From the NCBI GenBank assembly GCA_007694095.1, contig RECI01000206.1, positions 1 to 49,986 of the forward strand: DNA of 49,986 nucleotides. The letters are read 5' to 3'. Source of the DNA: Balneolaceae bacterium (GTDB lineage: Bacteria > Bacteroidota > Rhodothermia > Balneolales > Balneolaceae). This document shows positions 28,893 through 46,473 of this stretch, in pieces. The position numbers were made by a program, and so were the translations under genes. The notes under the pieces were generated by a model. That model made no database searches. It saw only the letters and a program-made list of their open reading frames with translations, and was not told the DNA's origin. The stretch's first letter is position 1; each line of letters starts with the position of its first letter.

Positions 28893-29480
28893 CTACAAAA
28901 TAACCTCTTTTTCTGTAATTAATTGATCAAGCTTTATATCAAAAATTTCGACAGGAAGCGGTTCTGAATGCAGCTGACAATCAAAAAGAAGGCCAATTTT
29001 ACAGATCTTAGTGCTACCAAGAAACCTGTCGTAATATCCTTTGCCATATCCAAGCCGATTACGATGCCTGTCCCCTGCCACCATGGGTACTATTACAAGG
29101 TCAATTTGGGAGACAGGACATTCTTTTGCGAATACCGGTTCGCGAACACCCCATCCGTTGGGCTCAAGATACTGTAACGATTCGATTTGATGATGGGTAA
29201 GCAACCCATTGTGTTCCACTTTCGGAATGACCACGATTTTATCCATCTCAAAGCATTTGTTTATGATGAAATCTGTAACTACTTCATTGTTTTCCGGGAT
29301 CGAAACATAGCAGTGTATAACTTCTGAAATGGTAAATTGTGGCAGAGTAAACAATCTCTCAGCAATAGAAGTGCTGGCATCCTGAATAAAACCTTGTTTC
29401 AGGTTTTTTCGAACCGAAATATAATGTTTCCGTAGGTTATCTTTCGTCGGTGTATCTGGCCTTTTCAAAGATGGATCCAT
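28893..29480 (-). CDS. 5-formyltetrahydrofolate cyclo-ligase
   Basis: Converts 5-formyl-THF to 5,10-methenyl-THF with ATP, recycling an inhibitory folate (MTHFS/YgfA family). The family signature VPMVAGDRHRNRLGYGKGYYDRFL (split in two here: DRHRNRLGYGKGYYDR) is perfect, and the N-terminal KDNLRKHYISVRKNL is the usual ATP/substrate-binding start. It is 195 residues. The start ATG at 29480 lies inside the end of bshC, a 16-base overlap, so the two are coupled. I looked for a 6S RNA next to it, as in some bacteria, and saw none. Confidence 0.93.
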   Translation of the reverse strand: MDPSLKRPDTPTKDNLRKHYISVRKNLKQGFIQDASTSIAERLFTLPQFTISEVIHCYVSIPENNEVVTDFIINKCFEMDKIVVIPKVEHNGLLTHHQIESLQYLEPNGWGVREPVFAKECPVSQIDLVIVPMVAGDRHRNRLGYGKGYYDRFLGSTKICKIGLLFDCQLHSEPLPVEIFDIKLDQLITEKEVIL

Positions 29481-31084
29481 TTGTGGCTATCCGGCGTATG
29501 ACCGGCAAGCTGTCTGAGGATGTTATCCCATATATCTATACCATACTTATTCATAAAGTATATAAATGCCACTTCCCTGTCCTGAAGGTTGCCATTTGGG
29601 AACAGGCTGTTTTGTATTCGCCTGAGTCTGTTTAATTGTGTCTTATCCTGCTCTTTAAGCGAACGGTAAACTTTACCTTTCAATTTATCCAATTCATTAA
29701 AATAGGAAGTAATTGCTTTTTCTGCGCTGCCCTTAAGGGTCGGGTCAATTTCTGTAATGGCTCGTATACTTCCTTCAGAACATTCGCCGGCAGTTTTTTT
29801 CCATATTGTAAAAATGGATTCTATATCCGGTGTATCAGCCCTGGATATATATACAGATTCAAGATCTTCGATTCGCTGGTTATACTCATATTTCTCAAAT
29901 GGAAGTTTATCGATGATGCGTTCAATTCCGGATTCAACGATAGCAGCACTAAACCGGGGAAGAATAATTGGCATTTTCAAATCAAACAGAGAATACAAAT
30001 CTTTCATTTGAGCATAATATGCCACCTCGCTTGGCCCGGCCACATATGCAATGCAGGGTAATAACCAGCTTTGCGTCAATGGCCTTAAAAAAACATTTGG
30101 AGAAAACCTTTGAGGATTCTTATTGATTTCATTGATGAGATCGGCATCATCCCAGTAGATATCCTTTCCTTCAATGTGCCATCTATGACCTGAATTTGCA
30201 ATTTTTTCCCTGTTTTTATCATCATCTATCCAAAATAAATTGGAGATTTGAACATAAACCTGCCTGTGGTAGCCCTTAACATTCAACTTTTCAGACCGTG
30301 TGTTAAGTGCATCAAATATTTCAGATGCTTTTTCTACGCTTTGTATTAAAGGCTCGGTTACAGCTCTTTTTGAAACTTCCGAATTTGTTCCCGCCAGGAT
30401 TAAGCCATGTTTGCCAAAAATTTTTAAAATTAGCTTGCCGAAGGCCTCAGAAAAAGTGGATCCCTTTTTGTATGTATCATCAAGTATTTCCCAAAGACGG
30501 CCGGAAAAATCTGTTTCAGCCAAAAGATGCCGAATTTCATTGCGAAATGCTTCAAAACGATCTCCAAGGATAATTTCAGATACCCTCTGATGGTTTACAT
30601 GCTCCGCATCAATTGTCATTGTTTTGATTTCATCCCGGTCAAATAAGCCAATAGCGGCGGCTTCATCGAAATCGTGATCTTCATCTGCCATCCAGAATAC
30701 AGGGACAAATGGCCGGCCATACTTTTTTTCCCAAATGTCTGCCTGATGAATGGCAGTTATGATTTTCAGAATTGTAAACAAGGGCCCGCCATATATGGTG
30801 AGCTGCTGCCCGGTTACAACAGCCAGGCATTTTTCATCTTCAAGTTTTTCAATCGATTGAAATACCTGATCATTTGCATCGAACTGACGATTAAAATCGG
30901 TAAGAATCCTGATAACTTCTTTTCTGTCACCAGGAAATGAATATTCTTCCAGTTTTTTTACCGTTTCTGTTTCAGAAAACGGATTGGTGTCAAAAAAATC
31001 AGCTAAACGGCTGAAATTGGATGTGTAATCTTTAAATAATCCGGAAAAAGGTAAATGTGAAAATGGAGTTGAAAAAATATTCAA
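29465..31084 (-). CDS. bshC: BshC, bacillithiol cysteine-adding enzyme
   Basis: Last step of bacillithiol synthesis: joins cysteine to glucosaminyl-malate. The 539-residue length and the conserved landmarks fit the BshC/YllA family: AVVTGQQLTIYGGPLFTILK (about 88-107), PVFWMADEDHDFDEA (about 128-142), FLRPLTQSWLLPCIAYVAGPSEV (split across about 348-370) and a long coiled-coil near the C-terminus. This gene is good evidence that the organism makes bacillithiol, as many Bacillota and Bacteroidota-related lineages do. bshA and bshB are not in the window. It overlaps the folate gene downstream and begins 1 base after the stop of the nuclease-family gene upstream. Confidence 0.95.
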   Translation of the reverse strand: MNIFSTPFSHLPFSGLFKDYTSNFSRLADFFDTNPFSETETVKKLEEYSFPGDRKEVIRILTDFNRQFDANDQVFQSIEKLEDEKCLAVVTGQQLTIYGGPLFTILKIITAIHQADIWEKKYGRPFVPVFWMADEDHDFDEAAAIGLFDRDEIKTMTIDAEHVNHQRVSEIILGDRFEAFRNEIRHLLAETDFSGRLWEILDDTYKKGSTFSEAFGKLILKIFGKHGLILAGTNSEVSKRAVTEPLIQSVEKASEIFDALNTRSEKLNVKGYHRQVYVQISNLFWIDDDKNREKIANSGHRWHIEGKDIYWDDADLINEINKNPQRFSPNVFLRPLTQSWLLPCIAYVAGPSEVAYYAQMKDLYSLFDLKMPIILPRFSAAIVESGIERIIDKLPFEKYEYNQRIEDLESVYISRADTPDIESIFTIWKKTAGECSEGSIRAITEIDPTLKGSAEKAITSYFNELDKLKGKVYRSLKEQDKTQLNRLRRIQNSLFPNGNLQDREVAFIYFMNKYGIDIWDNILRQLAGHTPDSHKWIHL

Positions 31085-32453: not shown

Positions 32454-32548
32454 GCTTGATATTATTAATATAATGTCAAACTTTTATCATCGTTCTACGT
32501 ATGATCAGTTTTATATTCTGGCAGCGAAAAATATGGCATACTTTGGCT

Positions 32549-34753
32549 ATGCAAAATAACGTCCTCAGGAGAGTATTCCTGGTATTTATCACTATTATTG
32601 TAGGTTCCAGTTTTTTTTCTGTGAACTTGCATGCCGAAAATTTTGAGACCGAACTGGCAGATACTGTCCGGGTTGGACTTGTATTATCGGGCGGAGGCGC
32701 CCTGGGAATTGCCCATATAGGAATTCTTGAGGCGTTAGAAGAAGCAGGTGTCCGTATTGATTACATTACCGGGACAAGCATGGGAAGTCTTGTCGGAGGA
32801 TTATATTCAATTGGCTACACAACCGCTCAACTTTCTGAAATAGCCATATCGAATAATTTTATTGATCTGTTCACTGAATCAAGAGACAGGCGATATATCT
32901 CAAATTATGAAAAATTGATTGAAGACCGGACAATCGCTTCTTTTCCAATCAATGAAAAGAGAATCGATTTGCCACTAGGAATCATATCGGGCCAAAATGT
33001 ATACACATTTCTATCAAGGCTGGCGTGGAATGTTCATGGTACAGAAGATTTTTCTCAATTCCCCATCCCCTTTGCGGCTGTAGCCACTGATTTAGAAACC
33101 GGGAAAGCAGAAGTTTTTCGTTCCGGTTATTTACCGGATGCACTCCGTGCCAGTATTTCTATCCCTTCAGCTTTTGCACCGCACCCAATAGGAGATAAAT
33201 TGTATATAGATGGTGGTTTGATACGCAATATTCCCGTACAGGATGCCATCGAAATGGGTGCTAATTATACTATTGCGGTAGATGTAAGTACTCCTCTTTT
33301 GCCAAAAGACAGTTTGAACTCTCTTGCTTCCATATTAAATCAAAGTATTATTTTCCGTATTCAGGACTATAATGTTATTCAAAAAAATTTGGCGGATTAT
33401 GTTATTGAGGTGGAAGAACTTCAACCTTATTCACCGGCTGATTTTGACAAGGCAGAGCTCTTTCTTGAAATTGGACGCAGGTATGGTAAAAAACATTTAG
33501 ACAAGTTTCGCGAAATTGCAGCCATGCAAAGTTATCCTCCCCCGCCCAGGCCCGGTGTTGGCGAAACGGGCGCCCTGCCGGTTAATGAAGTTATTATCAA
33601 TGGCAACACTCTTGTTGATGATGAGTTTATTCTCCGCCTCTTAGACTTTACACCCGGAGTTAGTATGAATCCGGATATCATTGAAGAAAAGGTAACCCGT
33701 CTGTATAGCTCACAATATATTAACCATGTTACCTACCGAATAAGGCCAAATGACGATTATTTTTATAATCTTGAAATCAATATTGTTGAAAATACAACAG
33801 ACGAATTTAGAGTAGGTTTAAGGTATGAATCTGGAACCCAGGCTTCGTTATTACTCGAAACAACTTTCAGAGACCTGCTGCACAGAGGCTCTCTTACACG
33901 GTTTGAATCTAGGCTTGGCGACAGGATGAATTTTATTGCCGACCATGTTTACTATGGCGCACTCGGATCACGTTTTGCCATGATTTCCTCAATTCAGTTT
34001 TTAACCGAAGATGTTGACTGGTTCTTGGATGGTGATGGTGTATCGCGTTTCAAAAATGAAATACTAAGGGCAGAGATCGCAGCCGGGAATTATTTCAGTA
34101 CCCAGAATCTGTTCACAATCGGAATCCGGAAAGACTTCAATAATCACACCAATAAGATTAATAAAGAATTTATCGGAGCATCGTCGGAAAATTATCATTC
34201 TTTGTACGTACGATTTATTCGGGATGACTGGAACAGACGGGGTTACCCAACATCCGGAAGAAAATTAGTACTGGAGAGTTTATTAAGTGATGAGTTATTA
34301 TTGAGTCCGGTAAATTTTACTGCGTCTCAATTATATTACAATGGTTTTTATCCGGTTCACAGAAATATCTCTTTTACAAATACATTTTGGTTTTCATATA
34401 CCACGGGACGTGAATTGCCCTGGCAATACTGGGCTTCTCCTAACCGGTTCGATCACACACTTGATTATACCCGATTCGCTGGTGCAAGAAGTTTTGAACT
34501 TACAACACGTAATATACAAATGGGTTCAATCGGAATTCAATTTGAACCATTCAGACACAGATTTATCGGTTTTGATTTTTATGCCGGCAGATTCCTTGAC
34601 AATTGGAACTTAAATATATCAGGCAACGATTTTGAATTTGCCGGGTCTATATCAGTAGGAGCTCAATCAATATTTGGCCCGCTTAAATTGATAATGTCAA
34701 CAAGCACTCTGCATACTTTCAGGGCAGAACTTCAACTTGGGTACCATTTTTGA
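32549..34753 (+). CDS. Patatin-like phospholipase fused to POTRA and outer-membrane barrel
   Basis: A surface or periplasmic lipase of the RssA/PlpD type. Numbered from a possible earlier start at 32501, the patatin domain is about 55-345: oxyanion loop GGGALG (64-69), nucleophile S93 in GTSMG, and the dyad Asp (about 237) in YIDGG. A single POTRA-like domain follows (about 359-425, VNEVIINGNTLVDDEF), then a 16-strand BamA-like barrel to the end, GYHF with terminal Phe. ATG at 32549 (MQNNVLRR) gives a normal signal peptide ending LHAEN. The next gene overlaps the stop. The patatin-POTRA-barrel layout is known in Bacteroidota and in type Vd secretion, where the domain is exported. Confidence 0.9.
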   Translation: MQNNVLRRVFLVFITIIVGSSFFSVNLHAENFETELADTVRVGLVLSGGGALGIAHIGILEALEEAGVRIDYITGTSMGSLVGGLYSIGYTTAQLSEIAISNNFIDLFTESRDRRYISNYEKLIEDRTIASFPINEKRIDLPLGIISGQNVYTFLSRLAWNVHGTEDFSQFPIPFAAVATDLETGKAEVFRSGYLPDALRASISIPSAFAPHPIGDKLYIDGGLIRNIPVQDAIEMGANYTIAVDVSTPLLPKDSLNSLASILNQSIIFRIQDYNVIQKNLADYVIEVEELQPYSPADFDKAELFLEIGRRYGKKHLDKFREIAAMQSYPPPPRPGVGETGALPVNEVIINGNTLVDDEFILRLLDFTPGVSMNPDIIEEKVTRLYSSQYINHVTYRIRPNDDYFYNLEINIVENTTDEFRVGLRYESGTQASLLLETTFRDLLHRGSLTRFESRLGDRMNFIADHVYYGALGSRFAMISSIQFLTEDVDWFLDGDGVSRFKNEILRAEIAAGNYFSTQNLFTIGIRKDFNNHTNKINKEFIGASSENYHSLYVRFIRDDWNRRGYPTSGRKLVLESLLSDELLLSPVNFTASQLYYNGFYPVHRNISFTNTFWFSYTTGRELPWQYWASPNRFDHTLDYTRFAGARSFELTTRNIQMGSIGIQFEPFRHRFIGFDFYAGRFLDNWNLNISGNDFEFAGSISVGAQSIFGPLKLIMSTSTLHTFRAELQLGYHF

Positions 34754-36340: not shown

Positions 36341-37396
36341 TTAACCAACAATGCGCTTAATCAGCAGGAGAAATGTACTGGGGACGTCCAATGTGCTGAA
36401 GCCTTTAACAGCCCTGTCAGTATCGAGCAAGGCTTCAAAGATACCGGGCATTTCCGAAAGCCTGAATTTCGAGGCTTCCTGGAATTGAAGATTAAAGAAA
36501 TAATTGTTGCTGATGCCAAGCTGCTGTTGTACCTGCTGCTTGTTCAGCCCTTTTTCCCTCAATCTGCAAATCTGCCAGATGTTGCCAAACACATTGTAAA
36601 AGAACCCCAGGGTTTTAAAAATTTCCCCTGCGTCGTTATTACTTCTATGCAACATCTGTTCCGCAATCATGAAGGATTTTTCCAAATTCCGTGAAACTAC
36701 CGCTTCTTTTAGCTCTATGACGCTATATTCGCGATATGATTCTGTAATTTTTTTTACGTGGCCTATTTCTATGACAGTATCACTGTCTACAAAAGTGCAC
36801 AGTTTATCTATTTCAGTGGACAGAAGTTTTAAATCCTGTCCTACAAGCTGAGCCAGAACCTGGGCCGCAGGTTCACTAATTTGTTTTTGATGTGAGTGTT
36901 GAGTCCAGTCAATAATCCAGGCAGCCAGACTGTTTTCATGAATTTTTCCAAATTCATAAATACCTGTATAGTCCCTTTTTTTAAAAAAAGCCTTTCCAAC
37001 TTTTGTGTTTTTATTCGGGAACTTTGAATCAATAAGGCAGAGAATTGCAGCGGGGTTGGGTTGTTCAAAATAACTGATAAACTCCTCAAGTGAATTTCCA
37101 CCACCAGAATCGTCAAGTTTCAGGAAATCCTTGACGATTACCACGCGATATTCAGACATCATGGGATAGCTGCGTGCGATACTCAATACTCTTTCAGCAC
37201 TGCTTTCACCACCATAAATAAGGTCATAATTAAAGTCTTTCAGATCAGCGGGAAGCAGTTTCCCAATTTCATCCTGGATAAGGTCCAGAAGAAAAGTTTC
37301 ATCACCGTATAGGTAATAAATCCGTTTAAGCGGACTCTTTCTCCTGAGCTCTTTATAGAGCGAACGAAATGTGTCTAAACTTGACGTTTTGGCCAA
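36341..37396 (-). CDS. holA: DNA polymerase III delta subunit
   Basis: The clamp-loader wrench that opens the beta sliding clamp. The 351-residue protein has the HolA N-terminal AAA-like domain without a functional P-loop: IYYLYGDETFLLDLIQDEI (about 25-43), FNYDLIYGGE, and ARSYPMMSEYRVVIVKDF. Then comes AQLVGQDLKLLSTEIDKL, typical of domain II, and the helical collar domain up to the C-terminus. Length and order are standard. Identity is low in this family, but the motif set is clear. Confidence 0.9.
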   Translation of the reverse strand: MAKTSSLDTFRSLYKELRRKSPLKRIYYLYGDETFLLDLIQDEIGKLLPADLKDFNYDLIYGGESSAERVLSIARSYPMMSEYRVVIVKDFLKLDDSGGGNSLEEFISYFEQPNPAAILCLIDSKFPNKNTKVGKAFFKKRDYTGIYEFGKIHENSLAAWIIDWTQHSHQKQISEPAAQVLAQLVGQDLKLLSTEIDKLCTFVDSDTVIEIGHVKKITESYREYSVIELKEAVVSRNLEKSFMIAEQMLHRSNNDAGEIFKTLGFFYNVFGNIWQICRLREKGLNKQQVQQQLGISNNYFFNLQFQEASKFRLSEMPGIFEALLDTDRAVKGFSTLDVPSTFLLLIKRIVG

Positions 37397-37419
37397 TTCT
37401 ACTGCCTGTTAATATTTTT

Positions 37420-38181
37420 TTATTCAATACCCATCGCATACCTGATTCCACCGAGAAGGTGTAAAAGGAAGTTTTCCTCAACATACGTTTCTTTCGTATG
37501 TCCAAGGCCGGTATAAAAAGCTCTTCCACCGTCATAGTCGTGATACCAGGCGATAGGATGATTGCCCGGATGTTCACTACCTTCGAAACTGTCGGTATCC
37601 AGTTTCATAAGTACATTCACATCAGGGTTCATATTTTTGAAATTATACCACTCGTCAGTTCTTTCCCATCTTTCCGGCAAATGTGCTGTTGAAGGGTGAT
37701 TTCTATTTACAACTTCAATAACTGCCGGTAATACCGGCGGATGATTCATAAAATAAGCCCCAACCATTTCACCAAACCATGGCCAGTCATATTCAGTATC
37801 GGTAGCAGAGTGCACACCAACAAATCCTCCGCCGGATTGAATATAACTTTTAAAAGCCGCACGTTGTTGTTCATTGAAAACCGTCATAGTGGTATTCAGA
37901 AAAATGACTGCATCATAACCGGCCAGGTTCCCGGTTGTGAAATAAGATGAATCCTCGGTTCGTGTTACATTAAACCCGTTTTCCTGTCCGAGTTTTTTTA
38001 TGGCTTCCGTTCCTTCTTCAATGGAATCATGGCGAAATCCTGCTGTCTTTGTAAAAACAAGAACCGAATGTTCGGCCGACTCAGTAAACGTTTCTTCATG
38101 TATGATCTCATTTTCATTTGCACAACCCAGGGAAACTGTTGTGAGTAAAAGAAATGTGAGTAACAGGTTAAATTGCAGCAT
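37420..38181 (-). CDS. ThuA-like domain lipoprotein
   Basis: A secreted lipoprotein: residues 1-18 form a signal ending VSLGC with lipobox Cys19, so it is lipid-anchored. The ThuA-like (trehalose utilisation) domain fills the rest: VLVFTKTAGFRHDSIEEG, AVIFLNTTMTVFNEQQRAAF, GGGFVGVHSATDTEYDWPWF, the HPPVLPAVIEVV segment and PIAWYHDYDGGRAFYTGLGH near the end. This glutamine-amidotransferase-like fold is common in Bacteroidota sugar-catabolism loci, but no sugar gene is near here. The enzymatic role is unknown; 253 residues. Confidence 0.9.
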   Translation of the reverse strand: MLQFNLLLTFLLLTTVSLGCANENEIIHEETFTESAEHSVLVFTKTAGFRHDSIEEGTEAIKKLGQENGFNVTRTEDSSYFTTGNLAGYDAVIFLNTTMTVFNEQQRAAFKSYIQSGGGFVGVHSATDTEYDWPWFGEMVGAYFMNHPPVLPAVIEVVNRNHPSTAHLPERWERTDEWYNFKNMNPDVNVLMKLDTDSFEGSEHPGNHPIAWYHDYDGGRAFYTGLGHTKETYVEENFLLHLLGGIRYAMGIE

Positions 38182-38272
38182 CGGTATTTAATTTATTGAT
38201 TATGTGTTGATCCTGATTTGACAATAACATCAGCTAATAAAATAGAAAAGTTTCTTAACAGTTCATGGTTTT

Positions 38273-39349
38273 TCACAACTCATTTTGAAGCCATGTTATG
38301 GTGTCAGTTTGATCAGGTTTCCACCAAATGGGTGGAGACTGGGCTTGTGAAAGAGGTTCAATAATATACGGGCCGGCTTTCTTTCCAATAAATCCGGATG
38401 TAGAATAAACCGACTGTAATCCGTTACCGAAACGACTTACTACATTTTCCAGGGTATTAAAATCTCCCTTCACCCAATGGAGGATATATTTTTCCTGAGG
38501 TATGTCAAGATTTTCTTCGATCAAAAAATCCTGTAGCCAGGCTTGGGGAATTTTCATCGCATGATTATATGCATAACGATATTCAAGTGATTTGGGAGGT
38601 TTATTGAATTGTGGATTATTCAGCCAAAATGATTCAATATAATCTGTAAATGAACATTTTTCAGAGTTCAAATGGAATGGAGCAACAACAATCGCCACAG
38701 AACGACAACCTGAACCTCCATAACGGAATACTGCTTCCGTTAAATCCTGCATGGTTTCAGGATTGTTATCGGTTATGAAAGCAATGGAAAAATTAGCAGT
38801 TCTGATTAGTTTTGGAGTGCTGCCGGAAATAAGCATTAATTCGGATAGCCTGTCCTCAACATTTTTTACAGACTTTCCAGATCCGGAAAACAATAGTGCA
38901 TCGGCCGGAGAACCACCGGCCAGTTTATCCAGTCTGCCGGCCCATTGTGCATTTTCAATCAGTTTATGCAATTCCAGCTTGTTTATTAGTGAAGGGAGCA
39001 GATATGGGTCTTTTCTGGATAGCTTACCGATATATGTACCACCGGTCATAACCACGGCTAACAGATCATGAATTCCGACGAGCGGGAGATTTCCTGCATG
39101 TAAACATAGAATTTTTTTATTCTCCAACGAATTCAACCGCAGCCCTGAACGTTGAGCCCAGGTATGCAAATCGCCCTTTTTTAGAGTGGATTTGAGTGTT
39201 AGTATTCGGTGCTTAACATCTTCAAAACCAAAGTAGCCGCCGTTTACCGTGTTATCGATCGCCTCCCTGAGTGTAAAATTATCAGGCTGCAGCCATTCAG
39301 TAATGGCATCTGCAATGTTACTGATATGTTGATCCGTGGAGTTCATCAA
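38273..39349 (-). CDS. LuxC-like acyl-CoA/acyl-protein reductase
   Basis: Similar to LuxC, which reduces a fatty acyl thioester to the aldehyde with NADPH. It has the ALDH-like fold: KKILCLHAGNLPLVGIHDLLAV (nucleotide-binding, residues 79-99), a TGGTYIGKLSRKDPYLLPS block and the likely catalytic Cys215 in GGSGCRSVAIVVAPF. It is 358 residues, shorter than Vibrio LuxC (about 480). It is directly downstream of, and overlaps by 4 bases, the LuxE-like gene (start 39349, LuxE stop 39346). No luxA, luxB or luxD is present. A fatty-acid reductase pair for some non-luminous product is likely; the product is unknown. Confidence 0.85.
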   Translation of the reverse strand: MMNSTDQHISNIADAITEWLQPDNFTLREAIDNTVNGGYFGFEDVKHRILTLKSTLKKGDLHTWAQRSGLRLNSLENKKILCLHAGNLPLVGIHDLLAVVMTGGTYIGKLSRKDPYLLPSLINKLELHKLIENAQWAGRLDKLAGGSPADALLFSGSGKSVKNVEDRLSELMLISGSTPKLIRTANFSIAFITDNNPETMQDLTEAVFRYGGSGCRSVAIVVAPFHLNSEKCSFTDYIESFWLNNPQFNKPPKSLEYRYAYNHAMKIPQAWLQDFLIEENLDIPQEKYILHWVKGDFNTLENVVSRFGNGLQSVYSTSGFIGKKAGPYIIEPLSQAQSPPIWWKPDQTDTITWLQNEL

Positions 39350-40341
39350 TCTCGATCAATCAAAAAATTACATCCGCGCGGATCATCGATATTCCACCTG
39401 CCAAGAACTTTGAACCGTCCAGATTCATCGGCTACCCCCCTGTCGTCAGTGAGAATAAATGGGCAAGAATACACGTTTGCCAAGTCGATGATGCCAATTT
39501 TGCCTTCCTCACCAGGATTGCAAATCCTTCGGGGATTTTCGGGATCTCTGATGGTAACCCAAACCCAATTTGGTGCAGTAAACCATTCATCTCCAATGGC
39601 ATACATCTGGCTTAACAGTTCACACATACCATATTCTGAATGAATGGAACCCTGAGGGATACAAAACCCTTCGGACAGTTTTTTTCGGAGCTGTTCTTTT
39701 GTTATTTCTCTCTTGAATGTTTTCATCCCTCCCGTTTCAATAATTTCAACTGGTCCCGAAAAAGGTGATTTTCCATTCTCAATGATATCGAGCAGCCCAA
39801 AAGCTGCACCAAACAGTAAAGGTATTTTGCCATTTTTGTTCACCTGCTCTTCCCATTTACCCGGATTAAAATCACTATTTTCCCAAAAGGTTGCCAGCCC
39901 GGAGCGATCCCGGGAAATAAGGTATTGAGCCATCAAGATGAGTGAAGAATTCGGATTATCCCTGTAACCGGGCATATAACAGATCAGTGCGTAATTTTTA
40001 TCCGGGAAGTGTGTAAAAAATTCCCGGTTGATAGCTCGCTTATAAATCTTTATATCATGGATAAAATGCGAACTTTGATTCATACCGGAAGTGCCGCTGC
40101 TTTTAAAAACCACCTGGTGAGACACGCCATCAACAGAAATAATGCCCTGATTAAATGCCCTTATTGGTAACAGCGGTATTGCTTCTGGCCCTGCCAACGT
40201 TGCCCCTGTATATCCCAATGCTCCTGAAAAAAGGTTATATAGCTGGTTTTTTTCTTTTTGAAACCGATAAACTTCAAGACAACGTTCGGTAAAAGAGATT
40301 GAGCTGTCAAATATATATTCAGACCAGCCTTTTGTATCCAT
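39346..40341 (-). CDS. LuxE-like acyl-protein synthetase
   Basis: Similar to LuxE, which activates a fatty acid with ATP as acyl-AMP and passes it to its own cysteine and then to LuxC. It has the adenylation-type motif FKSSGTSGMNQSSHF (the ATP loop, about 78-92), a central HSEYGMCELLSQ motif holding the Cys that would carry the acyl group, and a C-terminal DDRGVADESGRFKVLGR segment like the A8 motif of ANL enzymes. It is 331 residues. The stop overlaps the start of the LuxC-like gene, which supports one functional unit. It begins 26 bases after the purD stop. Confidence 0.85.
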   Translation of the reverse strand: MDTKGWSEYIFDSSISFTERCLEVYRFQKEKNQLYNLFSGALGYTGATLAGPEAIPLLPIRAFNQGIISVDGVSHQVVFKSSGTSGMNQSSHFIHDIKIYKRAINREFFTHFPDKNYALICYMPGYRDNPNSSLILMAQYLISRDRSGLATFWENSDFNPGKWEEQVNKNGKIPLLFGAAFGLLDIIENGKSPFSGPVEIIETGGMKTFKREITKEQLRKKLSEGFCIPQGSIHSEYGMCELLSQMYAIGDEWFTAPNWVWVTIRDPENPRRICNPGEEGKIGIIDLANVYSCPFILTDDRGVADESGRFKVLGRWNIDDPRGCNFLIDRD

Positions 40342-40367
40342 TGTCCTGATTATGGGTTTAAAAAGAT

Positions 40368-41657
40368 TTAACCTATCCTTCTTAATCCTTTCCCGCCGAT
40401 ATCTTTACGGAAGTATTTATTCTCAAATGAGATAATATCAACATTTTTATAGGCATGATTGATTGCATCCTGAAGGGTATTTCCGCTACCGACTACATTC
40501 AATACCCTGCCCCCATCAGTAACGGTTGCCCCATTCTTTTCAGCGGTACCGGCATGAAAGATAATGGCATCTTCATCAACCTCGTCAAGACCATTAATTT
40601 CCATACCTTTGTTGTATGCCAAAGGGTAGCCTTCACTTGCCAGCACTACACAGCAGCGATACTTATTGTCAAGATAGATCGTTTTTTCGTCGAGCCGCTG
40701 TTCGGTAGTAGCCACAAACAGTTCCAAGAGGTCGTTTTCCAGTGACGGTAAAATCACCTGGCATTCGGGATCCCCAAACCGGCAATTATATTCTATTACT
40801 TTCGGTCCATCGGCCGTAATCATCAAGCCCACATAAAGAATTCCGACATATTCATATTCCTCAAGCGACATCCCCGTGATAGTCGGGTTTATGATTTCAC
40901 TTTTAACCTGTTCAAGTATCTCTTCGGTAACAACTGGTGCAGGTGAATAAGCCCCCATTCCACCGGTATTCAGGCCGGTATCCCCATCACCTGCCCGTTT
41001 ATGGTCCTGGGCATTATGCAACACATGAGAGGTGTGGCCGTCAGAAATTACAAAAACTGAAGCTTCTTCCCCTTCCAGAAATTCCTCAACAACGAGCCTG
41101 TTCGCAGCTTCGGACAGCGTTTTATCTTTTTTAATGCCAAGTAGCCGTTGTTTTACTTCATCTTCGGAGTGGCAAATAAAAACCCCTTTGCCAGCAGCGA
41201 GCCCGTCAGCCTTCAGCACAATTGGATAAGTATCCTTCAGCTGGATAAATTTCAGGGCATCATCAAAATCAAGCGAGCTGAATACTGAGTAATCTGCCGT
41301 TGGAATTTTATATTTTGTCATAAATTCCTTGGCAAATTCTTTACTGCCTTCAAGCATAGAGGCTTTTTGCGAAGGCCCGAAGACAGGCACGTCATGTTTT
41401 TTTAAAAAATCGGTAATGCCATTTACGAGTGGTTTTTCAGGGCCAACTATAACAAGTTCAATATTATTTTCCCTGATAAAAGAAAGTATGGCATCAAAAT
41501 CTGATAAAGATAATTCTACATTTTTGCCATATTGTGCAGTACCAGGGTTCCCCGGGGCTATGTAAAGAGCCCCGAGTTTTTCCGATTGAACTAATTTCCA
41601 GGCTATGGCATGCTCTCTACCGCCGTTGCCCAATAATAGAACATTGTAAGTATCCAT
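40368..41657 (-). CDS. purD: Phosphoribosylamine-glycine ligase
   Basis: GAR synthetase, the second step of de novo purine synthesis: phosphoribosylamine + glycine + ATP to GAR. The ATP-grasp enzyme is 429 residues and full length. Blocks: NVLLLGNGGREHAIAWKL (start), VVGPEKPLVNGI, FGPSQKASMLEGSKEFAKEFM, KADGLAAGKGV, LNTGGMGAYSPAPV and EYNCRFGDPECQ (metal and product site). tpiA ends 8 bases upstream on the same strand, so the two are likely co-transcribed, though they serve different pathways. Confidence 0.97.
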   Translation of the reverse strand: MDTYNVLLLGNGGREHAIAWKLVQSEKLGALYIAPGNPGTAQYGKNVELSLSDFDAILSFIRENNIELVIVGPEKPLVNGITDFLKKHDVPVFGPSQKASMLEGSKEFAKEFMTKYKIPTADYSVFSSLDFDDALKFIQLKDTYPIVLKADGLAAGKGVFICHSEDEVKQRLLGIKKDKTLSEAANRLVVEEFLEGEEASVFVISDGHTSHVLHNAQDHKRAGDGDTGLNTGGMGAYSPAPVVTEEILEQVKSEIINPTITGMSLEEYEYVGILYVGLMITADGPKVIEYNCRFGDPECQVILPSLENDLLELFVATTEQRLDEKTIYLDNKYRCCVVLASEGYPLAYNKGMEINGLDEVDEDAIIFHAGTAEKNGATVTDGGRVLNVVGSGNTLQDAINHAYKNVDIISFENKYFRKDIGGKGLRRIG

Positions 41658-41665
41658 ATGATGAT

Positions 41666-42430
41666 TTAGATAGTTTCGGAGATTTTCAAAATCTCGCTGT
41701 AACTACCAGCACTAAGGCTGGCACCACCAATCAATCCGCCATCCACATCTTTCTGGGATAATAATTCGCCGGCATTATCGGGTTTCATACTTCCTCCGTA
41801 TAAAATCCTGACTTTTTCACTGCTAGTTTCTCCCCAGTGCTGTGTGATCAAATCACGGATAAATTGATGCATTTCCTGAGCCTGTTGTGGAGTGGCAGTT
41901 TCACCGGTGCCAATAGCCCACACGGGTTCGTAAGCTATCACAAGTGTATCGGACTCATCATTGCCAAGATGAGTGAGTACAGCATCAACCTGTCGCTTCA
42001 CAACTTCCTGGTGTATTCCTTCTTTCCTCTCGGAAAGTACTTCTCCTACACATACTATGGGTTTGAGGCCATCATCAATCACTTTTTTGGTTTTTTGGGC
42101 TACCAGTTCGTCTGATTCATGAAAGTATTCCCTTCTTTCCGAATGGCCCACGATCACGTATTCACATCCGGCATCTTTCAGCATAGATGTGCTGATTTCA
42201 CCGGTATAAGCCCCGTCATTTTCGGTATGCACATTTTGTGCCCCAACTTTAAATTGAGTGCCTTCAAAAGCAGCTGCTACTGCGGGTATTGATATAAATG
42301 GTGGACATAACAGTGCTTCTGAATGAAATGATTCTTCCTTCCACTTTGCTGCAATATCTTCTGCGAGTTTTTTGGCAGCCCCGGGCGCCGCGTTCATCTT
42401 CCAGTTTCCTGCAATTAAAAATGTTCTCAT
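41666..42430 (-). CDS. tpiA: Triosephosphate isomerase
   Basis: Interconverts dihydroxyacetone phosphate and glyceraldehyde 3-phosphate. It is 254 residues, with the N-terminal FLIAGNWKMNAA (catalytic Lys13 in the NWKMN motif), IVGHSERREYF (catalytic His), the flexible loop YEPVWAIGTGETATP (catalytic Glu) and GGSMKPDNAGELLSQKDVDGGLIGGASL (phosphate binding; read as two halves). A complete, ordinary enzyme. It is preceded by the thioredoxin-fold lipoprotein gene, 9 bases away, and followed by purD, 8 bases away. Confidence 0.97.
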   Translation of the reverse strand: MRTFLIAGNWKMNAAPGAAKKLAEDIAAKWKEESFHSEALLCPPFISIPAVAAAFEGTQFKVGAQNVHTENDGAYTGEISTSMLKDAGCEYVIVGHSERREYFHESDELVAQKTKKVIDDGLKPIVCVGEVLSERKEGIHQEVVKRQVDAVLTHLGNDESDTLVIAYEPVWAIGTGETATPQQAQEMHQFIRDLITQHWGETSSEKVRILYGGSMKPDNAGELLSQKDVDGGLIGGASLSAGSYSEILKISETI

Positions 42431-42439
42431 GGTAAAAAT

Positions 42440-43801
42440 TTATTCGGTTAGTGTTGTTAGTTGTTGTAAACCCTGAACCACATCATCGTATTCGTTACCG
42501 ATGTATCTTCGAATTATGGTACCGTCGCTATTCACAAGAAAACGGGTAGGCACCCTGTTGAGATTTAAGGTTTCTGCCAATTCCTCCGCGTCGAAGGAAT
42601 TAGGTTGTATAATATTCCAAAGTTTGCTCCGCTCTTCAAAAAATGCCTGCAACATTACATCAGAGCTTGAAAGAGGGACCGTGATAATTTCTAGGTCAAA
42701 ATTTCTGTAAATCTGGTGGATAGCCACCGTTCTGTCATACTGTTGCTGGTACAAAAAATTGTCGAACCTTGTAATTTCTATTAAAAAGGGTTTACCTTTC
42801 AAGTCCTGTGTCCGAATGGTATCTCCTTCAACGGTAACAAGTGTAAGTTCCGGAAACTGATAGCCGGGTGCAAGAAATTCAATATCATAACTTATGCTTT
42901 CTGCCCATTGCATTGCCATTTCATTATCGGAGAAAGCTTTTTTGAAATCATCAAGATGGCGGTTCGCTTCGATGGTACGGGAACTGTCATACAACAGTTC
43001 AATCCGTTCCATATTAATTTCCATCCTTGTTGATAAATACTCACTCCTCTCTTCAAGATCCTGAAGAAATGCAAGCACCCTGTTAAGTCCATCCGTTTCG
43101 GCATAATATTCCGCCAGTACCTCTCTTGTAACTGCCGATAAATGATTATAGTGTTCCAACAATTGATTGCTGCGTTCAAGCATTTTTTCATTGTTCCATC
43201 CGCTTAACAATACGACTGAATTTTCACCCGAGATTTTTCCAACATGGGTGCCGGGATATTCATCAAAAAGTTCCCAGTATAAATCACTCCATTTTTCGAT
43301 CTCAATCTGAATACTGTCCTCTGCTATAACGCCGGCATTTATAAAATTGGCAACTCTTGTAAAATTTCTTTCTAATCTGTTAAGTACAGTCAACAGATCA
43401 TTTTCGTTAGATGAGATACTTGCTGTCTGGTTCACATTCGGCAGGCTGGCATCAATGTTAATAGTGTCTCCGTCGGCGAATACCAGGTTGAGGATGCCAA
43501 ACGTATTCCTGTTACGGGAAATTAAAAGTGGATATATATCATCCATTTCAAAAAAAGCATCTGCGGCAAAAAGACCGGTGGTATCTGTCACTGCAAAGAA
43601 AAGTGTATCCGTTTGCTGGCTTCCGGTAGATACAGTAGAGAGCAACTGAATTCCACTATAATCACCTGATGCATCGAGTTGGCTGTCAACTGTTATTTTA
43701 CCGGTAATATGAACCGAACGTTTAACATCCGGTTTTTCCCGTGCACAGGATAATAGTAACAAAGCCGGAAGTATCGCCAAAATCAGAAATTTATATCTCA
43801 T
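42440..43801 (-). CDS. Thioredoxin-fold (TlpA-like) lipoprotein lacking the CXXC
   Basis: A lipoprotein: signal peptide ending LLLLSC with lipobox Cys19, exported and lipid-anchored. The first 290 residues resemble the N-terminal helical and beta part of Bacteroidota thiol-disulfide oxidoreductase-like lipoproteins (HITGKITVDSQLDASGDYSG; GILNLVFADGDTINIDASLP). The last 150 are a redoxin domain: PGYQFPELTLVTVEGDTIR, then DLKGKPFLIEITRFDNFLYQ where CXXC should be, and the cis-Pro loop RVPTRFLVNSDGTIIRRYIG. The only cysteine in the whole protein is that of the lipobox. It therefore cannot do thiol redox chemistry and is probably structural or binding. Confidence 0.8.
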   Translation of the reverse strand: MRYKFLILAILPALLLLSCAREKPDVKRSVHITGKITVDSQLDASGDYSGIQLLSTVSTGSQQTDTLFFAVTDTTGLFAADAFFEMDDIYPLLISRNRNTFGILNLVFADGDTINIDASLPNVNQTASISSNENDLLTVLNRLERNFTRVANFINAGVIAEDSIQIEIEKWSDLYWELFDEYPGTHVGKISGENSVVLLSGWNNEKMLERSNQLLEHYNHLSAVTREVLAEYYAETDGLNRVLAFLQDLEERSEYLSTRMEINMERIELLYDSSRTIEANRHLDDFKKAFSDNEMAMQWAESISYDIEFLAPGYQFPELTLVTVEGDTIRTQDLKGKPFLIEITRFDNFLYQQQYDRTVAIHQIYRNFDLEIITVPLSSSDVMLQAFFEERSKLWNIIQPNSFDAEELAETLNLNRVPTRFLVNSDGTIIRRYIGNEYDDVVQGLQQLTTLTE

Positions 43802-43826
43802 AATTTAATGTACTGAATCCATAACA

Positions 43827-45281
43827 TTATTCTGTACTATCGAGCCTTGCAGCAACCATTTCTCTTGCCTGCTTAGGGTTGGCCTTGCCTTTTGATTGTT
43901 TCATCACCTGCCCAATGAAGAACCCCATAAGCGCCTTTTTTCCCTCCCTGTAACGTTTCACTTCGTCGGGGTTAGATTCCAGGATCTCATCAATGATAGG
44001 TTCCAGGAATCCTGAATCGGAAACCTGTATCAGGTTCAGTTCACCGGCAAGATCAAGGGCATCCTTATCACTTCGAATTAATTCATTAAAAATAGTCTGC
44101 ATGGCCGAGGAATTAATTTTATCCTCTAATTTAAGACGAATCAAACCCGAAAGTTGTTTTGGAGTTATACTAAACTCGTTAATACTAATACTCTTATCAT
44201 TTAAAACTCTTAAAACCTCAGTCAATATCACATTAGAAATAGCTTTGGGTTCGTCCAGAAAAACAAGTGCTTCCTCAAAGTAATCAGCCAGGTAACGATT
44301 ATCTGTAAGGATTTCCGCGTCATCCTTGTTTAAACTCAATTCATCAACAAACCGTTGAAAACGTTTATCCGGGAGTTCGGGAAGTTCGGACTGAATGTCT
44401 TCAAGAAGAGATTCGGTTACAATAATCGGTGGCAAATCAGGTTCCGGGAAATAACGGTAATCATGTGCTTCTTCTTTTGATCTCATCTGGCGGGTTTCCA
44501 GTTTATTTGGATCCCATAGCAGTGTTTGTTGTACTACTTCTCCCCCGCTCTCCACCAATTCGATCTGGCGTTCAATTTCAAAGGTGATAGCTCTCTCAAC
44601 ATTGCGGAACGAGTTCATGTTTTTAAGCTCTGTACGGGTGCCAAACTCTTTCTGCCCCCGTGGCCTGATGGATACATTGGCATCACAGCGAAGGCTCCCC
44701 TCCTCCATATTTCCGTCACAGACCTCCAGATATTGTACAATTTGTCTGATTTTCTTCAGATACTCATAAGCCTCTCTCGGAGTACGAATATCAGGCTCCG
44801 ATACAATTTCAATCAATGGTGTCCCAGCACGGTTCAAATCTACAAGTGTATGATAGGGATCCTGGTCGTGAATGGATTTACCCGCATCCTCTTCCATATG
44901 AATACGGGTAATACCAATAGTTTTTACATAATCTTCAAGTTCGATCTGAATGCATCCATTATAACAGATCGGAGTTTCATATTGTGATATCTGGTAACCT
45001 TTCGGCAAATCGGGATAGAAATAATTTTTTCTTGCGAAAATTGATTTTTCTGAAATTTTACAACCGGTGGCAAGCCCCACCTTTAATGTATACCTGACGA
45101 GATTCTGATTTAGTACCGGTAAGGTTCCGGGATGCCCAAGACATAATGGTGTAACCTGCCTGTTTGGCGCTCCCCCGTATTCTGAAGATACCGCTGCAAA
45201 TGCTTTGCTTTTTGTGAGTAGTTGTGCATGTACTTCAAGGCCTATTACGGCCTCATACTTTTCATTCGATATTGTCGACAT
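43827..45281 (-). CDS. gatB: Aspartyl/glutamyl-tRNA amidotransferase subunit B
   Basis: The kinase/transamidase subunit of GatCAB, which turns Glu-tRNA(Gln) or Asp-tRNA(Asn) into the Gln/Asn form. Conserved blocks: VIGLEVHAQLLTKSKAFA, CLGHPGTLPVLN, KNYFYPDLPKGYQISQYE, EDAGKSIHD, NRAGTPLIEIVSEPDI, YLEVCDGNMEEGSLRCDANVS, YRYFPEPDLPPI and the C-terminal YqeY-like helical domain up to GQVMKQSKGKANPKQAREMV. It is 484 residues. gatA and gatC are not next to it. A single gene or the end of a transcript; an upstream gap of 382 bases separates it from a divergent gene. Confidence 0.97.
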   Translation of the reverse strand: MSTISNEKYEAVIGLEVHAQLLTKSKAFAAVSSEYGGAPNRQVTPLCLGHPGTLPVLNQNLVRYTLKVGLATGCKISEKSIFARKNYFYPDLPKGYQISQYETPICYNGCIQIELEDYVKTIGITRIHMEEDAGKSIHDQDPYHTLVDLNRAGTPLIEIVSEPDIRTPREAYEYLKKIRQIVQYLEVCDGNMEEGSLRCDANVSIRPRGQKEFGTRTELKNMNSFRNVERAITFEIERQIELVESGGEVVQQTLLWDPNKLETRQMRSKEEAHDYRYFPEPDLPPIIVTESLLEDIQSELPELPDKRFQRFVDELSLNKDDAEILTDNRYLADYFEEALVFLDEPKAISNVILTEVLRVLNDKSISINEFSITPKQLSGLIRLKLEDKINSSAMQTIFNELIRSDKDALDLAGELNLIQVSDSGFLEPIIDEILESNPDEVKRYREGKKALMGFFIGQVMKQSKGKANPKQAREMVAARLDSTE

Positions 45282-45675
45282 TCTTTGGATTGAAGTTCAA
45301 AAAATTTATCAGCCATAAAAGATAATAAAGTATACACAGAATGTAATCACCAATATGAGGTAATAATGTTTAGTTTAACCCGGATAGCTGATTAAAATTT
45401 TGGGCCAAAATTGTAAGCAGTTTACTGTGCGTTCCCGGAGTGTATTGAGCTTAGCTTACCCTCTGACAAGAACCAATTAAGTACACCCGGTTATTCTTTA
45501 TATTAATCTTTAAACGGGTTGAAAGTATATTCAGTTTATAAATCCAACAGAAATTCAGTGTTACCTTCATCCATTATAAAAGCGCTTTTTTCTAATATTT
45601 AATCGATTCTTCTTCAATATTGTTATAATATTTTGTTAATTAAGTAGAGAACACTATAACCTTATGCATTCTGCT
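45282..45675. other. Divergent intergenic region between gatB and a secreted-protein gene
   Basis: An AT-rich gap of nearly 390 bases. No open frame, RNA gene or hairpin stood out. It should hold two outward promoters; TAATATTTTG around 45628 has the look of a Bacteroidota-type -7 element (TAnnTTTG) for the plus-strand gene, but no matching -33 was seen. Confidence 0.35.
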
Positions 45676-46473
45676 ATGAAGAATATCATAAATACACTCA
45701 TTCTCACCCTGTCGATTTCATTCTTTGTTACAATATTTGCACAATCCCAAACCCACCAGGGGTTATATATGAAACTTGAGTTTCTGGATGTTGACCGGGA
45801 GGAGATCAGTAATTTCAAAAATAACATCCAATCGGTTTTAAAACCGGTGAATGAAGCCAGAATCAATGCAGGCGCACTTAGATACTGGTATGCTTATGAA
45901 GTGTTATATCCCGGAAGCCAAAACACACCCTATAATTATGTGATTGTCACGATTTGTGATGCGTTGTGTGCATTCGAAAACATATCGGATCATATTCATG
46001 ATCAACTTTCTGCTGCTGACCTTGAGCATTTACTCCCCCGTTTCAACAGCATTATGATGCCAAGGTTTTCTGAGCTATGGAGAATCAATAACAGTGTACT
46101 GCGAACTGAAAATTCCAAACCATCAAGGTATTTTATGCTTGACTATATGCGGGTGCGGGCTGGCCTGGAGTATACCTATCAGATGATGGAGGATGACAAT
46201 GCAAGGCCTATTCATGAATACAGAATGGAAAACGGAAACATGGAAGGCTGGGAATTATTTAGTTTGATATTGCCTCGGGGAGATGAATATGGCTATAATT
46301 TTGCAACAGGTAATTATTTCTCAAATCTAAGGGATGTGGAATTTCACTTTAATGAGGAAGTAATCAGGCAGTCAAGCCCGGATGTTAATGTTGCCGAGTT
46401 TATCGAAAACGTAGAGAATGTACGGACACTGGTACGCTCGGAAGTACTGGAGTTGATCGATTACCTGAAATAA
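45676..46473 (+). CDS. Secreted protein of unknown function, perhaps two DABB-like domains
   Basis: A secreted 265-residue protein (269 if the ATG at 45664 is used). The signal peptide runs to about FAQSQT. Two similar halves seem present: each starts with a strand ending in a helix-rich region, with LKPVNEARINAGALRYWYAY and then YNYVIVTICDAL in the first, and RPIHEYRMENGNMEGWELFS and FATGNYFSNLRD in the second. This looks like a duplicated dimeric alpha-beta barrel (ferredoxin-like) domain, but the call is by pattern only. No catalytic residues are assigned. Single gene, with a possible terminator 135 bases downstream. Confidence 0.7.
   Translation: MKNIINTLILTLSISFFVTIFAQSQTHQGLYMKLEFLDVDREEISNFKNNIQSVLKPVNEARINAGALRYWYAYEVLYPGSQNTPYNYVIVTICDALCAFENISDHIHDQLSAADLEHLLPRFNSIMMPRFSELWRINNSVLRTENSKPSRYFMLDYMRVRAGLEYTYQMMEDDNARPIHEYRMENGNMEGWELFSLILPRGDEYGYNFATGNYFSNLRDVEFHFNEEVIRQSSPDVNVAEFIENVENVRTLVRSEVLELIDYLK

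Follow-up and report, generated by a model that had tools for sequence, protein, structure and literature searches.

Here, we describe a luxE-like and a luxC-like gene that lie side by side on a 49,986-base stretch of DNA from a Balneolaceae bacterium (hereafter the window, which is an entire contig, C246). The two gene products probably constitute a two-component carboxylic acid reductase that depends on adenosine triphosphate (ATP) and NAD(P)H, a conserved housekeeping activity unrelated to light. In luminous bacteria, LuxC and LuxE carry out acyl activation, transfer and reduction, and this scheme underlies the mechanism that we propose. LuxE would activate a carboxylic acid as acyl-adenylate (acyl-AMP) using ATP, and the acyl group would pass to a flexible C-terminal cysteine of LuxE (Cys324). 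This residue would hand it to Cys214 of LuxC, and LuxC would then reduce the thioester to an aldehyde with NAD(P)H. The catalytic steps, the LuxC-LuxE complex and the cofactor are all predicted here by analogy. As for the acid, a fatty acid is, tentatively, the likeliest single choice, with a smaller or heteroaromatic acid close behind.

Both open reading frames (ORFs) are open in the window and lie on the minus strand. The luxE-like gene (39346..40341) encodes 331 amino acids, and its product is predicted to be a PaaK/LuxE-type acyl-AMP ligase from the ORF, a PF04443 match, a profile match in the PDB and an AlphaFold model. The luxC-like gene (38273..39346) encodes 357 amino acids from its ATG, or 358 from a TTG at 39349, and its product is a predicted acyl-thioester reductase with an aldehyde-dehydrogenase fold. 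The original prediction had the two genes overlapping by 4 bases. They do overlap, at a TTGATG junction, but the overlap is 1 base (TGATG) from the ATG start, and 4 bases only from the TTG start. The order gatB, thioredoxin-like gene, tpiA, purD, luxE, luxC is kept in three named relatives (L041, L042 and L043), hence the pair is not a chance reading.

The LuxE-like protein scored 40.3 bits against PF04443 (cut-off 24.9) and 25.1 bits against the NCBIfam model of the luminous-LuxE equivalog, for which 550 bits are required; it is therefore a member of the LuxE family but not a luminous equivalog. A profile built from 31 LuxE proteins of relatives (alignment A2) retrieved the LuxE of Photobacterium phosphoreum from the PDB (7xc6_E, E-value 2.6e-24, profile positions 10-325 of 330), and the carrier cysteine of 7xc6_E, in a GC motif, is in register with this family profile. 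In an alignment of 56 LuxE rows, the proposed acyl carrier Cys324 (in an RGC motif, 39370..39372, minus strand) is a cysteine in every row, the luminous-type LuxE of an Escherichia coli plasmid (L120) among them. In the activation loop SSGT (residues 81-84; 40090..40101, minus strand), S82 is kept in 55 of these rows, G83 in 51 and T84 in all 56. The AlphaFold model has a mean predicted local distance difference test (pLDDT) score of 87, falling below 50 for the C-terminal residues 326-331; a floppy tail of this kind would suit a mobile carrier arm. We noted that 7xc6_E was absent among the matches listed in fold searches with this model. This absence is no evidence against the LuxE identity, because the profile search does find 7xc6_E. 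The predicted function of LuxE is to form acyl-AMP and to transfer the acyl group to its own cysteine.

We assigned the LuxC-like protein on the basis of its predicted fold, its co-occurrence with LuxE, and a homologue (L074) in a different class of the same phylum that passes PF05893 with 52.3 bits. The window protein itself scored 13.1 bits against PF05893 (E-value 0.043, below the cut-off of 21), and no NCBIfam model matched it at an E-value of 0.001. Its AlphaFold model (pLDDT 93) had the solved LuxC, 7xc6_A, as the top Foldseek match. A second structural alignment to 7xc6_A gave a Z-score of 31.3, a root mean square deviation of 3.0 and 349 aligned residues; the runner-up was an ordinary aldehyde dehydrogenase with a Z-score of 25.2. 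A profile of 26 LuxC proteins from relatives (alignment A1) reached 7xc6_A in the PDB with an E-value of only 0.011, no better than two designed armadillo-repeat proteins, and because these scored about equally we did not rely on this match. Furthermore, a search of plasmids with the window LuxC gave no match at an E-value of 0.01, though the plasmids that we opened (see below) carry LuxC genes; the window LuxC is therefore far diverged. Nevertheless, the proposed reductase nucleophile Cys214, in the motif GGxGCRS (GSGC214RS in the window protein; 38705..38707, minus strand), is a cysteine in 31 of 31 rows that include the luminous-type LuxC of L120, a PF05893-positive LuxC (L032) and six LuxC proteins from the plasmid operons described below, and in 24 of 24 rows of another set. 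An AGN motif (residues 84-86; 39089..39097, minus strand) is common to the window protein and the L120 LuxC. It is invariant in the 26 A1 rows and present in most of the 31 wider rows, with PGN, SGN or PSN elsewhere. The activation loop, carrier cysteine and reductase cysteine named in the original prediction are therefore all present (SSGT, RGC324 and GSGC214RS), and alignment found neither cysteine to be lost.

The pair is core in kin genomes, and it is kept together across the phylum sample even when unlinked. The sampled genomes are grouped here under the kinship labels order, class and phylum; we take the phylum to be Bacteroidota, from the placement of Balneolaceae. Three named LuxE relatives found in a scan of genome contigs are from Balneolaceae genomes. 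Among 58 kin genomes, luxC was found in 56 and luxE in 56; the genomes missing a gene, two per gene, are 62-89% complete. When the kin set was narrowed to genomes with a completeness of at least 90% and a contamination of no more than 5%, each gene was present in 40 of 40; this answers the question, raised with the original prediction, of whether the pair belongs to the core of this lineage. A survey with PF04443 matched 51 of 247 genomes but missed the source genome itself. Because PF04443 was too insensitive, it was replaced by purpose-made LuxE and LuxC profiles. With these profiles, LuxE was found in 130 and LuxC in 135 of 296 phylum genomes, counted as related genomes: 129 have both, one has LuxE alone, six have LuxC alone and 160 have neither. 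The LuxE-only genome (G220) carries another LuxE type, which scores 193 bits against PF04443 and which A2 reaches with an E-value of only 8.9e-10. Of the 42 same-order genomes with both genes, 41 have the luxE and luxC starts less than 2.2 kb from each other on one contig; elsewhere in the class this holds for 6 of the 17 genomes with both, and in other classes for 0 of 70. A Fisher value computed from the co-occurrence counts treats related genomes as independent and is no true probability. Since the pair is kept in other classes though adjacent in none of those 70 genomes, its co-occurrence is not mere linkage.

As a luminous yardstick, we used the luxC and luxE of plasmid L120, whose lux genes we take to be of Photorhabdus origin; they score 898 bits (cut-off 750) and 699.5 bits (cut-off 550), respectively, against the NCBIfam equivalogs. 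The L120 LuxE is ~19% identical to the window LuxE, and has GGWK where the window protein has GGMK. The P. phosphoreum LuxC-LuxE system (7xc6) resembles the window pair in its LuxC fold, its LuxE family profile, both cysteines and the two-gene partnership. In contrast to that system, the window pair comes from a genome without luxAB. A genome-wide search found a single PF00296 protein, on contig C29. It is nearest TIGR03858 (LLM_2I7G; 434 bits, cut-off 462) and far from luxA (47 of 600 bits) and luxB (20 of 500 bits). The pair was expected to stand without luciferase genes, and indeed the genome has no luxA/luxB pair, its sole PF00296 protein is of another subfamily, and no luciferase operon was found outside the window. 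The search for luxD (PF02273) gave no match in the genome, nor in any of 14 control genomes. The window pair is a divergent branch of LuxC/LuxE.

Next, we consider which acid the reductase might act on. One tenable substrate, though it falls short of probable, is a small or heteroaromatic acid such as the precursor of a vitamin or cofactor, which would be turned back into an aldehyde or alcohol in salvage or repair; this reading draws on operons carried by plasmids. When 72,556 plasmids were searched by tblastn with the window LuxE, 26 records proved to hold a LuxE relative, at 27.8-29.4% identity over ~95% among the matches listed (20 of the 26). We opened six loci, five from these listed matches and one from a further search that used the LuxE of Lactiplantibacillus and gave 42 records: L115 8679-14815, L116 1390-6321, L117 8706-12313, L118 6688-12280, L119 8707-12252 and L122 6827-12834. 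Their hosts are Azospirillum, Lactiplantibacillus, Pantoea (two loci, so that the six are not independent), Niallia and Priestia, that is, three proteobacterial and three Bacillota records. Each of the six has LuxC immediately after LuxE and a short-chain dehydrogenase/reductase (SDR) next, which in two comes after an ATP-binding cassette (ABC) transporter. Four of the six carry transporters (ThiW, ABC, nucleobase-type permease). In the Lactiplantibacillus locus a nucleobase-type permease precedes LuxE, and the ORFs and Pfam matches of the Niallia record (L118) read ThiW, nucleobase-type permease, LuxE, LuxC and SDR.

In the Azospirillum locus, Pfam marks the transporter's binding protein as NMT1/THI5-like (and it is SsuA-like below the NCBIfam cut-off); thiamine precursors were therefore suspected, and Rfam was searched. 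All six loci have a same-strand thiamine pyrophosphate (TPP) riboswitch immediately upstream, in five of them over the gathering score. Niallia has two TPP riboswitches in tandem, and Priestia has one at 49 bits, below gathering (E-value 4e-8). By contrast, no TPP riboswitch was found in five control loci of other LuxE types, namely L120, a Priestia LuxE linked to acyl carrier protein (ACP; L121), a Streptomyces LuxE (L123), L031 and L032. The simplest reading of the TPP operons would be a reduction of an imported thiamine precursor from acid to aldehyde to alcohol, possibly an unrecognised salvage step. LuxE-LuxC chemistry is therefore probably not confined to fatty acids. In a literature search, judged by title, term counts and start of abstract and with subscription papers outside its scope, no LuxE-LuxC operon under a TPP riboswitch was found among the matches listed. 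The name oarX, for a TPP-regulated oxidoreductase, was not found in the literature among the matches listed either. The main text of a survey of riboswitch regulons contains none of the words 'reductase', 'oxoacyl' and 'acyl-CoA' (PMC3766115).

How closely these operons bear on the window pair is less clear-cut. In both, LuxE is directly followed by LuxC, and by identity and tree the TPP-type LuxE is nearest the clade of the phylum. TPP-type LuxE proteins average ~25% identity to the window LuxE, compared with 19% for luminous-type LuxE and 20% for the LuxE of L031/L032. In a tree of the 56 LuxE proteins the phylum clade and the TPP clade group together, and luminous-type and other LuxE fall outside; the support is 89/84, which is below the starred level, and long branches are flagged. 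The LuxE fold, nearest to PaaK-type ligases, also favors a small acid. The profile of LuxC from other classes, however, did not repeat this grouping, as it gave 28.9 bits to the luminous-type LuxC and 17.4 bits to the best TPP-type one. The two groups also differ in the residue before Lys207, which is Met throughout the phylum's family (45 of 45 rows), Phe in the TPP type (6 of 6) and Trp in all other rows (5 of 5) (GGMK in the window versus GGFK in the TPP operons), and in LuxC length (357 amino acids versus 482-493). Unlike the TPP operons, the window pair is without riboswitch, transporters or SDR: no SDR lies in an operon with it, its neighbours being purD upstream and a ThuA-like gene and holA downstream. 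TPP regulation of the window pair was rejected. No TPP riboswitch was found near the pair (37000-46000) at E-values up to 1, and at the gathering score other classes gave none either, across 7 luxE and 11 luxC loci out of 20 fetched for each gene. Inspection by eye of 148 genomes likewise showed none at luxC or luxE among the matches listed; the nearest listed, in G164, lies 4-5 kb from luxC with a ferredoxin gene between, and does not fit. For the window pair, the TPP lead adds to the acids worth considering and assigns none. We regard it as speculative, and rather unlikely, that LuxE-LuxC is a general acid-reducing module of central or vitamin metabolism and no by-product of light systems, in which the TPP branch, with its transporters of thiamine-precursor type, takes a carboxylated thiamine precursor to the alcohol, the SDR acting last, and the phylum pair is a sister housekeeping branch acting on a small cofactor-type acid in place of a fatty acid.

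Alternatively, the reductase could well act on long-chain fatty acids and feed the synthesis of fatty alcohols, wax esters, plasmalogen-like lipids or hydrocarbons, although we would stop short of calling this probable. The luminous LuxC-LuxE is the only solved sequence relative of the window LuxE and the best fold match of the window LuxC. According to a study of flagellar glycosylation islands in Aeromonas, LuxC/LuxE lie there beside fatty-acid-type genes (PMC7874193). These islands place LuxC/LuxE outside light, as here; unlike the window, they have AMP-ligase and ACP genes nearby. A LuxC/LuxE-type protein of an O-antigen locus, RfbN of Vibrio cholerae, is also named in PMC4772473. On the other hand, no dedicated sink gene was recognised next to the pair in the loci examined, and the source genome gave no match to the wax ester synthase family PF03007. 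Inspected by eye, PF03007 occurs in 10 of 148 phylum genomes, of which five have both genes, four have neither and one has LuxC only. Wax ester synthesis as a general sink was rejected, since PF03007 is neither in the source genome nor tied to the pair. The plasmalogen desaturase PF10520 matched 0 of 148 genomes, and no control matched either. The original prediction had proposed a long-chain aldehyde, with wax among its products; no result pointed to a long-chain substrate, and the PF03007 searches do not favor wax.

A second type of LuxE-LuxC set was also observed, in L031 (106-3819) and L032 (90-3771), where the two genes follow an AMP-binding ligase and LuxE forms a separate branch of the tree. 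The LuxC match of L031 is split across two reading frames. One genome (G085) carries both a set of this type and the core genes. Glycan-type, as we call these loci, is our own label.

The neighbours of the window pair are housekeeping genes that name no substrate, as the original prediction had said; a hint comes from relatives elsewhere. Upstream lies a string of purD, tpiA, a weakly thioredoxin-like gene and gatB (40368..45281, minus strand; Pfam/NCBIfam), with gaps of 8-26 bases; this same-strand string is probably one transcript. Downstream are a ThuA-like gene and holA (36341..38181, minus strand; Pfam/NCBIfam). In L041 and L042, thuA, holA and a sigma gene come after the pair; they were not found after it in L043. 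Among the 20 luxE loci fetched from other classes, no clustered neighbour occurred in more than six. The luxC of other classes lies beside a gene for a 116-amino-acid 4Fe-4S ferredoxin (for example L074 5931-7499), in 65 of 70 genomes by position. Clustering found this gene divergent beside luxC in 15 of 20 fetched luxC loci, and a representative passes PF12838 (30 bits, cut-off 27). We considered the ferredoxin as an obligatory third component and rejected it, as a strong copy was listed in just 5 of 42 same-order genomes and beside luxC in none of them. An aminotransferase and a 2-hydroxyacid dehydrogenase, which we take to be serC-like and serA-like, were likewise rejected as partners, since they lie beside luxC in just 6 of 20 loci. 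Three further observations concern the window itself. A 269-amino-acid protein without a Pfam or NCBIfam match (45664-46473, plus strand) adjoins gatB in L041 and L042 as well, at 50-51% identity. A patatin-like phospholipase with a POTRA domain (32501-34753, plus strand) is followed by a tetratricopeptide repeat (TPR) protein, and both are retained in L041. Lastly, BshC of bacillithiol biosynthesis is encoded at 29465-31084 (minus strand), and the lineage may use bacillithiol.

A mutant of a luxE homologue has been described in Riemerella anatipestifer, which we take to belong to the same phylum as the window. According to that report, AS87_03730 is highly conserved among R. anatipestifer strains, which give no detectable light, and its deletion caused slower growth in tryptic soy broth (TSB), less invasion and an ~80-fold attenuation (PMC4772473). 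Twelve translation genes were up in the mutant, and the authors leave the role of the gene open (PMC4772473). With the scope given above for the literature search, no other work on a LuxE-LuxC pair in this phylum was found among the matches listed.

Several points weigh against a two-component reductase. The Riemerella study covers the luxE homologue only, and orthology to the window LuxE is an assumption of ours. The folds closest to the LuxE model are PaaK-type ligases of aryl or short acids (Z-scores 22-23; 2y27, 2y4n, 4r1l and others). Ligases of this type pass the acyl group to coenzyme A (CoA); the window LuxE adds to their fold a conserved C-terminal cysteine and a LuxC partner. The window LuxC shares ~16% identity with its luminous-type counterpart in L120 and is ~120 residues shorter, and for this reason its reductase activity is inferred from fold and cysteine only. 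Six genomes have LuxC but no LuxE match, the co-occurrence figures count related genomes and not independent events, and the adjacency of luxC and ferredoxin in other classes is unexplained by a simple NAD(P)H scheme. The short and highly diverged LuxC might also point to a pair that is a relict or moonlights and has no reductase activity, for instance with LuxE acylating LuxC or other proteins. We consider this improbable, given that both cysteines are invariant in the aligned rows and that the genes are retained jointly across the phylum sample. Finally, a remnant of a bioluminescence operon, which has lux gene homology in its favor and nothing else, is exceedingly unlikely and was rejected for the source genome, the only one searched for luxA/luxB, because there is no such pair, because LuxE is far under the luminous equivalog and LuxC has no NCBIfam match where L120 meets both, and because the pair is core in kin.

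Collectively, a two-component carboxylic acid reductase remains the reading that we favor. A gene pair usually tied to bioluminescence would thus be a conserved two-gene activity in a large bacterial group, even where the genes are separated, and naming its acid would give a role to a core gene pair. The TPP operons, for their part, point LuxC/LuxE chemistry to a class of non-lipid substrates that can be tested, and they may hold an unrecognised step of thiamine salvage.

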